Shown here one piece after another: positions 3,266 to 16,099 of a DNA stretch of 40,515 nt (within the stretch, counting starts at the first letter, position 1; each line of letters opens with the position of its first letter). The notes below the pieces were generated by a model. It was not told the origin of the DNA. It ran no database searches and saw nothing but the letters and a program-made list of their open reading frames with translations. Origin of the DNA: Bacteroidota bacterium (GTDB lineage: Bacteria > Bacteroidota > Bacteroidia > Chitinophagales > Chitinophagaceae). Made by a program: the position numbers and the translations under genes. The stretch spans positions 1 to 40,515 of the forward strand of contig JABDFN010000005.1 in the NCBI GenBank assembly GCA_013286485.1. Direction: 5' to 3'.

Positions 3266-3682
3266 ATGCGCTATACCATAACTATATTTTTTCTGCTGTT
3301 TAGTTGCAACCTCATTGCACAAGATGATGCGGCTTTAAAAAAATCAATGGGCGATCTCAATGTAGCAATGCTGAAAAGAGATACAGTTGCAATAAAGAAA
3401 CTAATAGATGATAAAATAAAGTACGGTCATTCAAATGGTATGGTACAGAGCAGGCAGGAGATAATGAATGATATGTACAACGGCAAGTTGTTATACACAG
3501 ATATGAAGCAGACTGATATAGAGATGCAAAAAGAAGGAGATATAGCATTGGTACGGTCAAAAATGTTGATCGATGTGGCTATGAATAGCAAGGCAGTAGA
3601 ATTTAATTTGAGCGTATTACAGGTTTGGATGAAGAAGAAACAAGGTTGGATATTGCTAGCAAGGCAAAGCGGTAAAATGTAA
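3266..3682 (+). CDS. Secreted NTF2-like/DUF4440-type protein inside the nuo operon
   Basis: A 138-residue protein with a signal peptide (hydrophobic residues about 3-17, cleavage probably after LIA before QDD), so it should leave the cytoplasm. The mature part resembles the SnoaL/NTF2-like DUF4440 fold: an N-terminal helical segment, then GHSNG, an SRQEIM helix, and strands ending in VWMKKKQGWILLARQSGK. No catalytic motif can be named. It starts 2 bases after nuoE and is followed by a hairpin-containing spacer before nuoF, so it is probably co-transcribed with complex I. It is not a known complex I subunit. Its role is unknown; an assembly or periplasmic accessory function would be speculation. 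The family call is moderately sure. Confidence 0.75.
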   Translation: MRYTITIFFLLFSCNLIAQDDAALKKSMGDLNVAMLKRDTVAIKKLIDDKIKYGHSNGMVQSRQEIMNDMYNGKLLYTDMKQTDIEMQKEGDIALVRSKMLIDVAMNSKAVEFNLSVLQVWMKKKQGWILLARQSGKM

Positions 3683-3730: not shown

Positions 3731-5089
3731 ATGGCAATAAAATTATTATTAGAGAACGCACACATAGAGGGCATTCGTAGCTACGATGTCTATCGCAAGC
3801 ATGGCGGTTACCGCTCTGTAGAGAAAGCGTTTAAAATGACGCCTGACGAAATAGTGGAAGAGGTGAAGAAGAGTGGCTTACGCGGACGTGGTGGTGCAGG
3901 TTTTCCTACCGGCTTGAAATGGAGCTTCCTGGCAAAACCTGAAGGCGTGCCTCGTCACCTGGTTTGTAATGCTGACGAATCAGAGCCCGGTACATTTAAA
4001 GACCGTTACCTGATGGAATTTCTCCCTCACTTATTGATAGAAGGTTTAATAGTGAGCAGTTTTGCGCTGAACAGTAATCATACATACATTTATATCCGTG
4101 GTGAATACGCATGGATAGTTGATATACTCGACCAGGCTATCGCTGAAGCAAAGAACAATGGCTGGCTCGGTAAAAATATTTTAGGCACGGGCTTCGATTG
4201 CGAAATTTATGTGCATCGTGGTGCAGGTGCTTATATCTGCGGCGAAGAAACAGCATTGATAGAAAGCCTGGAAGGAAAGCGCGGTAATCCGCGTATCAAA
4301 CCTCCTTTCCCTGCCGTACAAGGCGTATGGATGCGCCCTACTGTGGTAAACAATGTAGAAACATTAGCTGCTGTAGTCCCTATTATCAACAATGGTGGTG
4401 AGGCATATTCAAAAATTGGTATCGGCAAATCTACCGGCACTAAGCTATTGTCTGCTTGTGGTAATATCAACAAGCCGGGTATCTACGAAATAGATATGAC
4501 CTGCTCTGTTGAAGAATTTATTTATAGCGATGAATATTGTGGTGGTATCGCAAAAGGTAAAAAATTAAAAGCATGCATACCCGGCGGCTCTTCAGTACCT
4601 ATTCTTCCTGCTAACTTACTATTAAAGACAGCAAAAGGCGAAACACGTATCATGAGTTACGAAAGTTTAGCTGACGGCGGATTTGCTACAGGCTCAATGA
4701 TGGGCTCAGGTGGTTTTGAAGTGCTGGATGAAGATCAGTGTGTGGTGCGTCATACCATGTCACTGGCTCGTTTTTACAATCATGAAAGTTGCGGACAATG
4801 CAGCCCTTGCCGTGAAGGCACCGGCTGGATGTATAAAATACTGAAGAATTTAGAATACGGAAAAGGTAAGATGAGCGATATAGATCTGCTTTGGGATATA
4901 CAGCGCAAAATAGAAGGCAATACTATTTGTCCTCTCGGTGATGCTGCTGCATGGCCGGTTGCTGCTGCTATACGTCATTTCAGAGATGAATTTGAATGGC
5001 ATGTTTTAAATCCTGATGAATCGCAGAAAAGGAATTATGGTTTGGCACATTACGCCGATCCTATACATGTTCCGGCTGCTGTTGGGTAG
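3731..5089 (+). CDS. nuoF: NADH-quinone oxidoreductase subunit F
   Basis: The 51-kDa-type subunit that binds NADH and FMN and passes electrons to cluster N3, the entry point of complex I. The nucleotide-binding glycine-rich motif RGRGGAGFPTGLKW is at residues 51-64 and the FMN-site segment CNADESEPGTFKDR starts at 79. N3 cysteines are C354, C357 and C360 (SCGQCSPC) with C400 in CPLGDAA. The 452-residue length is normal. It is separated from nuoE by the secreted DUF4440-like gene and from nuoG by the GxxExxY cassette, both unusual insertions. Confidence 0.97.
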   Translation: MAIKLLLENAHIEGIRSYDVYRKHGGYRSVEKAFKMTPDEIVEEVKKSGLRGRGGAGFPTGLKWSFLAKPEGVPRHLVCNADESEPGTFKDRYLMEFLPHLLIEGLIVSSFALNSNHTYIYIRGEYAWIVDILDQAIAEAKNNGWLGKNILGTGFDCEIYVHRGAGAYICGEETALIESLEGKRGNPRIKPPFPAVQGVWMRPTVVNNVETLAAVVPIINNGGEAYSKIGIGKSTGTKLLSACGNINKPGIYEIDMTCSVEEFIYSDEYCGGIAKGKKLKACIPGGSSVPILPANLLLKTAKGETRIMSYESLADGGFATGSMMGSGGFEVLDEDQCVVRHTMSLARFYNHESCGQCSPCREGTGWMYKILKNLEYGKGKMSDIDLLWDIQRKIEGNTICPLGDAAAWPVAAAIRHFRDEFEWHVLNPDESQKRNYGLAHYADPIHVPAAVG

Positions 5090-5107
5090 TTGCTAATAAA
5101 GTTTGTT

Positions 5108-5138
5108 CTTTGCGATACTTAGCGTTCTTTGCGTTTAA
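5108..5138 (+). repeat. Left arm of CTTTGCG/CGCAAAG inverted repeat flanking the GxxExxY gene
   Basis: Three heptamer units lie about one helical turn apart: CTTTGCG at 5108-5114, CTTAGCG at 5118-5124 and CTTTGCG at 5127-5133, followed by TTTAA and the ATG of the GxxExxY gene. The reverse complement recurs after that gene. The left arm matches the left arm of the nuoM-nuoN element at 26 of 31 positions without gaps. Confidence 0.85.
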
Positions 5139-5144
5139 CCTTTT

Positions 5145-5522
5145 ATGACAGAAAACGAGATTTCAAATATTGTAATTGGTGAAGCAATAAATATTCACCA
5201 ACAATTAGGACCGGGATTATTAGAATCAGTATATGAAGAATGTTTAATTCACAAGCTGATAAAAAAGGAATTAGTAGTGGAAAGGCAAAAACCGATTCCA
5301 CTGATATTTGAAGAAATAAAATTGGAATGTGGATTTAGGTGTGATATTTTAATTGAGAAAAAAGTAATTATAGAAGTAAAAGCAGTAGACGCTTTAAATG
5401 ATATACACTTGGCACAAGTGCTAACCTATTTAAAGCTAACAGGAGTAAAACTAGGCTTATTGATGAATTTTAATGTCGTAAGAATGAAAGATGGAGTAAG
5501 AAGAGTAGTTAATAATTTATAA
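5145..5522 (+). CDS. GxxExxY family protein (PD-(D/E)xK nuclease-fold type)
   Basis: A 125-residue protein with the motif that names the GxxExxY family: G24-L-L-E27-S-V-Y30 within LGPGLLESVYEECL. The family belongs to the PD-(D/E)xK nuclease superfamily, and the expected acidic/lysine core is visible: D67 in FRCDIL and E77-x-K79 in IIEVKA, with Q91 in the following helix. No signal peptide or membrane segment is present. The activity of the family is not established to my knowledge. The gene sits between nuoF and nuoG, where it has no metabolic logic, and is AT-richer than its neighbours. Inverted CTTTGCG arrays bracket it, so it looks like an inserted cassette. Orientation matches the operon, so read-through into nuoG remains possible. 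Confidence 0.9.
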   Translation: MTENEISNIVIGEAINIHQQLGPGLLESVYEECLIHKLIKKELVVERQKPIPLIFEEIKLECGFRCDILIEKKVIIEVKAVDALNDIHLAQVLTYLKLTGVKLGLLMNFNVVRMKDGVRRVVNNL

Positions 5523-5524
5523 AC

Positions 5525-5563
5525 CGCAGAGGACGCAAAGTCTGACGCAAAGGAATCGCAAAG
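5525..5563 (+). repeat. Right arm of CTTTGCG/CGCAAAG inverted repeat flanking the GxxExxY gene
   Basis: Four heptamers in the inverted orientation: CGCAGAG 5525-5531, CGCAAAG 5534-5540, CGCAAAG 5546-5552 and CGCAAAG 5557-5563. The array begins two bases after the GxxExxY stop and ends three bases before the nuoG ATG, so it forms the entire leader of nuoG. Confidence 0.85.
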
Positions 5564-5566
5564 ATT

Positions 5567-6658
5567 ATGTCTGAGGTTCAAAAATTTAAGGTTACTATTG
5601 ACAATATAGCTGTCGAAGTCGCACCGGGCACAACCATCCTAAATGCAGCCCGTATGATAGGTGGCGACGTTACACCTCCTGCTATGTGCTATTATAGCAA
5701 GCTGCAGGATAGTGGTGGTAAGTGCCGCACTTGCCTGGTAGAGGTAAGCAAAGGTTCTGAAAAAGACCCACGCCCCATGCCCAAGCTGGTTGCCAGCTGC
5801 CGTACTACGGTAATGGATGGTATGGAAGTAAAAAACATTACTTCTGATAAAGTACTGGATGCAAGAAAGGGTGTAGTGGAATTTTTGTTAATGAACCATC
5901 CACTCGACTGCCCCGTTTGTGATCAGGCCGGTGAATGTGATCTACAGGATCTGAGCTACGAACACGGCACAGAAAAAACCCGCTACGAATTCGATCGCCG
6001 CACTTTTGAAAAAGAAGATATTGGCCCTTATATACAATTGCATATGACACGTTGCATACTCTGCTTCCGTTGTGTGTATACTGCTGACCAACTTACCAAT
6101 AAACGCCAGCATGGCATATTAGACCGGGGCGAGCATTCAGAAATAAGCACCTACCTCAGCAAATCTTTAGATAATGAATTTATCGGCAATGTAATTGATG
6201 TTTGTCCTGTTGGGGCATTAACTGATAAAACATTCCGTTTCAAAAATCGTGTATGGTTCACTAAAGCAGTGGATGCTCACCGCGACTGCCCTACATGCAG
6301 CGGCAAGGTTCGTTTATGGATGCGTGGTGAAGAAGTATTTAGAGTTACAGCCCGCAAAGACCAATGGGGTGAAGTGGAAGAATGGATATGTAACGATTGC
6401 CGTTTCCATAAAAAAGAAACTAAAGATTGGGTCATAGAAGGTCCAACAAAAATTCGTCGTAGCAGTGTTATGTCACAGAATCATTATATCAATGAAGTAG
6501 TGCCGCAACCCGAACTGATAAACGATGTGATCGGCAAAAACCCAAAACTATTATTTGATATACATAGCGAGAGTGATGTGAACAGGCCTGACGTAGATCT
6601 GTCAAAGATCGAGGGGCCCGCGCATTCAAATGATTTTAAAAAGAATAAACCGGAATAG
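5567..6658 (+). CDS. nuoG: NADH-quinone oxidoreductase subunit G, short form
   Basis: The 75-kDa-type iron-sulfur subunit of the complex I peripheral arm. Visible ligands, in order: [2Fe-2S] C41, C53, C56, C78; the His-ligated cluster H111, C115, C118, C124; a [4Fe-4S] set C163, C166, C169 with C213 (CPVGAL); and a further C241/C244 and C275/C278 set where other NuoG proteins carry the N7/molybdopterin-type cluster. The protein stops at 363 residues, whereas proteobacterial NuoG is about 900: the large molybdopterin-oxidoreductase-like domain is absent. Short NuoG is usual in Bacteroidota as far as I know, so this is not a local truncation. The charged tail after about residue 330 is low in recognisable structure. 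Confidence 0.95.
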   Translation: MSEVQKFKVTIDNIAVEVAPGTTILNAARMIGGDVTPPAMCYYSKLQDSGGKCRTCLVEVSKGSEKDPRPMPKLVASCRTTVMDGMEVKNITSDKVLDARKGVVEFLLMNHPLDCPVCDQAGECDLQDLSYEHGTEKTRYEFDRRTFEKEDIGPYIQLHMTRCILCFRCVYTADQLTNKRQHGILDRGEHSEISTYLSKSLDNEFIGNVIDVCPVGALTDKTFRFKNRVWFTKAVDAHRDCPTCSGKVRLWMRGEEVFRVTARKDQWGEVEEWICNDCRFHKKETKDWVIEGPTKIRRSSVMSQNHYINEVVPQPELINDVIGKNPKLLFDIHSESDVNRPDVDLSKIEGPAHSNDFKKNKPE

Positions 6659-12535: not shown

Positions 12536-12613
12536 CTTTGCGCACCTTTGCGAATCCTTGCGCTCTTTGCGTTTAAATTATTAACCGCAGAGTACGCTAA
12601 AGAGATCGCAGAG
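12536..12613. repeat. Gene-less CTTTGCG/CGCAGAG palindrome between nuoM and nuoN
   Basis: Left arm: CTTTGCG at 12536-12542 and 12546-12552, CCTTGCG at 12556-12562, CTTTGCG at 12565-12571, then TTTAA. Right arm: AACCGCAGAG with CGCAGAG at 12586-12592, CGCTAAAG at 12595-12602 and CGCAGAG at 12607-12613. The arms are imperfect reverse complements separated by a few bases. They correspond to the two arms that bracket the GxxExxY gene at 5108-5563, so this is the same element without its gene. Confidence 0.82.
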
Positions 12614-12656
12614 TATAAACGATGACAAATGAAAACCGTTGTTTGTGACTAAACTC

Positions 12657-12691
12657 ACTTACGACTTACGACTAAATACTTACGACTAAAA
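12657..12691 (+). repeat. CTTACGAC repeats in the nuoN leader
   Basis: CTTACGAC occurs three times (12658-12665, 12665-12672 and 12679-12686), the last two followed by TAAA, directly before the nuoN ATG. Another phrase-like spacer; function unknown. Confidence 0.6.
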
Positions 12692-15663: not shown

Positions 15664-15795
15664 CTAACCTATCCACCCCTTTAAATTTTTCTATACCTCC
15701 ATTCTTTGCATCTATTTGTGGATATGTTTATTTGGAAACCGCTTGTTAATAATAGTAACTTGCTGTTACCTGTATTTTTTATAAGTATGGGTATT

Positions 15796-15828
15796 AGCTA
15801 ATCTGCAAATTTGCATATCAGCTAATCT
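15796..15828. repeat. TGCAAATTTGCA palindrome between AGCTAATCT direct repeats
   Basis: A perfect 12-base palindrome at 15804-15815 is flanked by AGCTAATCT at 15796-15804 and 15820-15828. It may be an operator or another spacer phrase; no regulator can be assigned. Confidence 0.45.
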
Positions 15829-15837
15829 ATGAAGTTC

Positions 15838-16099
15838 TTTGACATATCAAAAATTCCGGTCTTCGGAACTGCCTGCCAGCTAATGGCGATGGTAAACCCT
15901 TGCATTGCACAAAATGCAAATGGGACACCTTTGGCTACATTATAATGGATAGACTTCCTTCCGCTTTCTGTTTTTTTCTCCCAAAAGCGGAAGTGAATTC
16001 GCTGTATGCAGCGCCCATGGCTCATATTATTATTTTTACATGCGGAAGCAAAGCGGAAGTGAAGCGGACATCCCGACTATCCGAATGTTCGGATCGGGA
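15838..16099. other. Gene-free, hairpin-dense stretch
   Basis: The 649-base gap 15485-16133 has no convincing gene. Its right part is packed with stems: TTTGA/TCAAA near 15838, TTCCG/CGGAA near 15855, TTGCATT/AATGCAA at 15900-15919, CTTCCGCTTT/AAAGCGGAAG at 15958-15993, and TCCCGA...TCGGGA with an inner TCCGAA/TTCGGA at 16071-16099. The 14-mer AAAGCGGAAGTGAA occurs at 15984 and again at 16050. A 38-codon plus-strand ORF starts at 15829 but has no supporting homology I recognise. A structured RNA, a decayed gene or a repeat element are all possible. Confidence 0.4.

Follow-up and report, generated by a model that had tools for sequence, protein, structure and literature searches.

The intervening sequences (IVSs) of 23S rRNA that carry S23 genes consist of a small open reading frame between terminal inverted repeats, contain tandem words of about 7 bp and are tolerated in an essential transcript (PMC4990558). 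In the Coxiella IVS, a 28-bp terminal stem is accompanied by tandem GACAGAT heptamers beside the S23 open reading frame, and the element is cleaved by RNase III (PMC4990558). Other described systems that bear on such an architecture are the REP/RAYT REPtrons, in which a gene lies between inverted repeats and many gene-less palindromes are dispersed in intergenic regions, the homing endonuclease cassettes, and the classical pairs of an insertion sequence and its MITEs.

Here we analyze a 40,515-nucleotide stretch of DNA (referred to below as the window) from a member of the Bacteroidota, in which a GxxExxY nuclease-fold gene lies between inverted arrays of short words in the spacer that separates nuoF from nuoG. 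This cassette shares with the S23-bearing IVSs the small open reading frame between terminal inverted repeats, the tandem words of about 7 bp and the tolerance in an essential transcript, and in relatives the nuoF-nuoG spacer is itself a site of S23 cassettes (TIGR02436). In contrast to the IVSs, its gene matches PF13366/TIGR04256 only, an unrelated nuclease fold, it is located between two protein-coding genes rather than in rRNA, and its arms bear no sign of RNA-stem selection. A REPtron likewise combines a gene between inverted repeats with dispersed gene-less palindromes, but the cassette encodes a PD-(D/E)XK nuclease and no HUH Y1 (RAYT) transposase, each lineage has its own iterated word in the arms, and dispersal in trans is putative. 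The resemblance to homing endonuclease cassettes lies in a minimal nuclease found at the same orthologous spacer of distant hosts and in one case in which the flanking genes have diverged more than the cassette; nevertheless, the window unit has arms and lacks an intron or intein, and its family occurs at many unrelated sites. As to the pairing of an insertion sequence with MITEs, no known transposase is present in the cassette, whose sole open reading frame is the nuclease-fold gene.

A nuclease gene between word arrays in the nuo operon

The layout of the cassette is given in Table 1. The original prediction had described three CTTTGCG-type words before the gene and four inverted ones after it, and this agrees with the coordinates, five of the seven words being exact and the start-to-start spacing being 9-12 bp. 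The shuffled window has 5.37 such heptamers per 40.5 kb, which predicts about 0.06 in 466 bp, where five exact ones are observed (P about 7e-9). The proposed location inside the nuo operon was borne out by the Pfam matches of both neighbors, and the gene is indeed richer in AT, with a GC content of 29% versus 44% in nuoF and in nuoG. A DUF4440 gene between nuoE and nuoF (3266-3682) is a further passenger of the operon, with a match at that position in some relatives only.

Table 1. Coordinates of the cassette, its host genes and the gene-less array pair in the window
Feature	Position	Strand	Description
nuoF, upstream host gene	3731-5089	+	Pfam PF01512, PF10589
Left arm	5107-5139	+	CTTTGCG (5108-5114), CTTAGCG (5118-5124, one mismatch), CTTTGCG (5127-5133), spacing 10 + 9 bp; inner end GTTTAACC; pairs with right arm
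GxxExxY/PDDEXK_3 nuclease-fold gene	5145-5522	+	125 aa; same strand as nuo operon
Right arm	5520-5564	+	CGCAGAG (5525-5531, one mismatch), CGCAAAG (5534-5540), CGCAAAG (5546-5552), CGCAAAG (5557-5563); inner end TAAACC; 2 bp ahead of nuoG start codon
nuoG, downstream host gene	5567-6658	+	Pfam PF10588, PF22117
Gene-less array pair, nuoM-nuoN spacer	12536-12614	+	CTTTGCG, CTTTGCG, CCTTGCG, CTTTGCG - TTTAAATTATTAA - CGCAGAG, CGCTAAA, CGCAGAG

Profile searches matched the encoded protein to PF13366 (9e-42; 142.6 bits versus a cut-off of 22) and TIGR04256 (6e-42; 142.7 bits versus a cut-off of 35), and since both curated cut-offs are exceeded and the GxxExxY motif is present, the protein belongs to the GxxExxY/PDDEXK_3 family. 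All 74 homologues compared have residues G24, E27, Y30, D67, E77 and K79, and Q91 is nearly invariant; therefore, the active site appears to be under selection, and the D67 and E77-x-K79 core singled out previously is kept throughout. The AlphaFold model (pLDDT 94.9) places the D...ExK signature on an alpha/beta core, as in the PD-(D/E)XK superfamily. The nearest solved folds according to Foldseek were Cas4 SSO0001, LHK-Exo and lambda exonuclease, all of them weak matches (every E >0.001), and a search of the PDB by sequence profile gave no match. Sequence and model together point to a predicted minimal PD-(D/E)XK nuclease with no close solved relative. Such genes were found in 258 of the 399 sampled genomes of the window's order, and the open-access literature, where the family appears only in passing, yielded no function for them.

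The cassette had also been likened to an addiction unit, and a small nuclease gene next to operator-like iterated sites spaced by one helical turn, together with the weak resemblance to Cas4, would suit a toxin-antitoxin, addiction or defense unit whose arms serve as autoregulatory operators. However, no antitoxin partner and no second open reading frame of at least 90 aa was found between the arms, PADLOC returned only weak Cas4 matches (E 0.006), the cassette was found in none of the phage records and in 7 of 72,556 plasmid records, and gene-less inverted arrays would be left unexplained. The addiction claim therefore finds no support, and we consider any unit of this type highly improbable. 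That the cassette is missing from phage records and very rare on plasmids suggests slow spread through DNA uptake and recombination.

Matched arms follow the nuclease gene across phyla

The flanks of GxxExxY genes were scored by aligning the upstream flank to the reverse complement of the downstream flank, with a threshold of 28; the collection was scanned with a 7-row alignment because the 74-row alignment was too diverse. Matched inverted arms (score >=28) flanked the gene in 70% of 76 independent GTDB loci, which come from the Bacteroidota, Planctomycetota, Acidobacteriota, Ignavibacteriota, Fidelibacterota, Verrucomicrobiota, Balneolota and Chlorobiota, as compared with 1.3% of 155 other genes of those loci and 13% of mismatched pairs. 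For 93 genes collected at the level of the order, loci that are not phylogenetically independent, the median arm score was 31 versus 17 for mismatched flank pairs, and a score of 28 was reached in 60% versus 2.5%. The word varies from element to element but is the same on the left and on the right (CACAGAGG, CACATAGG, CACGAAGG, CGCAAAGG, CGCAGCGG and GATT types). Word spacing peaks at 9 bp (z 8.4) and rises again at 21-23 bp. Hence, most loci do have arrays on both sides of the GxxExxY gene, as had been expected, but CTTTGCG is not the general word, the word being specific to the lineage.

Arm similarity increased with protein identity (Mantel r 0.42, with none of 2000 permutations as high), and copies with dissimilar proteins within one genome had no words in common. 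Because similarity of the arms follows the protein and not the genome, arms and gene are inherited together, which supports the earlier view that they form one unit with element-specific inverted repeats. This co-inheritance could be explained by common descent alone and is no proof of binding. Near-identical copies of the cassette within a genome were not found, and there is thus no sign of recent transposition. The open-access literature contained no description of the inverted word arms or of a GxxExxY element; an earlier account may exist elsewhere. Four-helix-bundle (TIGR02436) genes, with up to 16 per genome, were also observed with matched inverted arrays of 7-8-bp words (L167-L196).

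The nuoF-nuoG spacer in relatives

Cassette-free alleles, a comparison already called for in the original prediction, turned out to be common, the spacer being near-empty in 32 of the 81 loci examined in family relatives, whereas a GxxExxY gene with arms was found in 21 of the 81. At other loci (e.g. L086, L088 and L342), the spacer has an S23/four-helix-bundle gene (TIGR02436) whose arms are built from a different word. Arms without a gene are present in L077 and relics in L082 and L094, and still other loci contain unrelated genes. All the main states were present within one genus, that of G248 (putative Lacibacter), where nuoF plus nuoG are 89% identical between the closest empty and GxxExxY-filled alleles (L339 and L340, respectively). 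Neither a target-site duplication nor a clean empty-site junction could be read, the filled and empty spacers of this pair having no common sequence.

Two further kinds of content were observed at this site. In two Lacibacter loci (L345, L347) the spacer holds an unrelated hairpin of the CCCCCAAAGGGGG type and is empty in 91%-identical relatives. Five other loci (L093, L095, L096, L097 and L099) hold unrelated genes, such as a glycosyltransferase-like gene and a gene for a conserved protein of about 280 aa; therefore, the spacer is generally tolerant of insertions.

In a tree of 168 proteins, the window copy was separate from the other family copies at nuoF-nuoG, and the site label has to change three times on the tree, well-supported branches forcing two of these changes. 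The spacer is occupied by two separate GxxExxY lineages, whose arm polarities are opposite. The lineage of the window (G180, G393 and G190, with G144 in another family) is always located at nuoF-nuoG and has the reversed polarity. The idea of a recent insertion did not survive this comparison, since four relatives, one of them from another family, have the same cassette at the same spot. The nuo cassette is old and has for the most part been passed down inside its own lineage. Within-family pairs of this lineage are 85-92% identical in nuoF and 68-82% in the cassette protein. On the other hand, the G144 cassette protein is 74-78% identical to those of three of the four family members and 69% to that of G190, with nuoF at 70-72%. 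These identities suggest a lateral transfer into the same spacer, with differences in rate as the alternative.

Because the cassette has long persisted at nuoF-nuoG in each of two lineages and its active site is conserved, the gene could also be taken for a settled nuo accessory gene, its product having a host function and its arms acting as regulatory sites or mRNA-processing hairpins. Nevertheless, the patchy distribution within genera, the near-empty state of many spacers and the occurrence of the family with its arms at many unrelated intergenic sites all argue against a settled gene, which we regard as quite unlikely.

Gene-less arrays in the window and in relatives

The array pair in the nuoM-nuoN spacer (Table 1), overlooked in the original prediction, has the words and the polarity of the nuoF-nuoG cassette and a hairpin z of -3.7. 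In the four relatives with the same cassette (L388-L391) the nuoM-nuoN spacer measures only 9-21 bp; therefore, the gene-less pair of the window is a lineage-specific gain. According to a pattern search, the window words are essentially confined to the two nuo spacers, which is weak evidence against further copies given that the assembly is 60% complete. The remainder of the nuoM-nuoN spacer (12640-12690) contains a different iterated word, TTACGACTTACGACTAAATACTTACGACTAAA, similar to S23-type arm words. The strongest palindrome of the window is an intergenic, near-perfect one of 34 nt, ATTAGCTAATCTGCAAATTTGCATATCAGCTAAT, at 15781-15840.

Gene-less arrays were also found in relatives. In 40 relatives that have a GxxExxY match, the pattern CRCARAGNNCRCARAG was counted 377 times, as compared with 19 times in 21 relatives that have none (Mann-Whitney p 4e-4), at least two copies being present in 19 of the 40 and 3 of the 21 genomes, respectively (Fisher p 0.012), and the reversed control of the pattern gave few matches. 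Gene-less arrays outnumber the GxxExxY genes in many genomes, and a GxxExxY reading frame was present at none of the 20 array sites sampled in G057 and at none of the 20 in G024. Those of G057 are mostly palindromes of about 100 bp, and its own cassette (L018) was the best match, among about 110 cassettes, for 15 of the 20, whereas in G024 the cassettes of the same genome were the best match for just 9 of 20. Certain genomes, such as G017 and G055, contain arrays while the GxxExxY gene is absent or reduced to a fragment. In relatives, the nuo spacers also frequently contain palindromes that are built from other words and lack the gene.

Some features of these elements were noted in addition. 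Four G057 arrays (L421, L424, L434 and L437) have similar outer flanks in common (TTTGCTATTGACA...), as judged by eye; some of the gene-less arrays of this genome may ride in a larger repeat, and other elements may be what spreads them. The nuo spacers of L081, L073, L077 and L098 each carry a gene-less palindrome of the word typical of the genome (e.g. AAGTCAAAATTCAAAAGT in L081). A copy-level hairpin correction of the gene-less elements was not supported, because pairing of arms within copies showed no consistent excess over pairing between copies.

Taken together, the mobility proposed for the cassette is supported on an evolutionary scale, in view of its presence and absence within a genus, the two lineages at one spacer, the gain at nuoM-nuoN and the dispersed gene-less relatives; recent transposition or target duplication was not seen.

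Orientation of the genes and mode of action of the arms

Outside nuo, 112 GxxExxY genes have two co-directional neighbors, and 100 of these genes lie on the same strand as the neighbors (p 2e-18); S23 genes are likewise co-oriented (23 of 26). The GxxExxY gene would accordingly be expressed through read-through of the upstream gene.

Strong co-orientation is also what an intervening sequence acting at the RNA level might show, the arms pairing in the nuo mRNA, RNase III cutting the stem and the cassette leaving the transcript, as in the S23-bearing IVSs of 23S rRNA. This explanation agrees with the RNase III-cut Coxiella precedent (PMC4990558), with the S23 genes found between comparable arms at the same spacer, and with the folding of the cassette RNA, which is better than that of shuffles (z -3.8). 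However, selection on an RNA stem should bias arm mismatches toward G-U, and in 111 elements 132 mismatches were of the G-U type and 121 of the A-C type (p 0.53). In addition, an Rfam search of ten loci gave nothing at the gathering threshold, the window producing a chance sub-threshold match only, and neither the dispersed gene-less copies nor the conserved nuclease active site would be explained. Removal of the cassette from the transcript is therefore unlikely in our judgment and, in the absence of a G-U bias, the arms probably function at the DNA level.

A candidate selfish nuclease cassette

The interpretation that we favor, with a confidence somewhat better than even, is that of a chromosomal selfish nuclease cassette that is promoterless, is expressed by host read-through and has non-autonomous gene-less derivatives. 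The unit would comprise a promoterless minimal PD-(D/E)XK nuclease gene of about 375 bp and two inverted arms, each with three to four copies of a lineage-specific 7-bp word spaced by one helical turn, and the cassettes sit in intergenic spacers, mostly on the same strand as the upstream gene. The nuclease may bind the word arrays in DNA and cut or nick there, or at a cruciform that the arms could form, and repair of the break would place a copy of the cassette, or in trans one of an arm pair without the gene, in another spacer. Expression would be borrowed from read-through of the host operon, which would explain both the co-orientation of the genes and the tolerance of the cassette by an essential operon.

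A broader and more tentative proposal, which we find plausible but would not call probable, is that a PD-(D/E)XK nuclease of 125 aa, and not a transposase, recognizes lineage-specific word arrays and spreads its own cassette together with gene-less arm pairs among intergenic spacers, forming an undescribed class of bacterial mobile DNA. The S23/four-helix-bundle cassettes would then have arrived at the same architecture in parallel and without being related, and the rRNA intervening sequences would be a special case of a general form.

The comparison with several hundred genomes suggests that the window cassette represents a widespread and apparently undescribed type of selfish element that also has copies without the gene. 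Linking the GxxExxY genes, which are common in the Bacteroidota and present in several other phyla, to word arrays and gene-less palindromes gives these genes a testable function, and this link may account for many intergenic repeats, as a large class, that have so far lacked an explanation. The site and the architecture held in common with S23 genes offer a new route into the decades-old question of the nature and spread of the rRNA intervening sequences.
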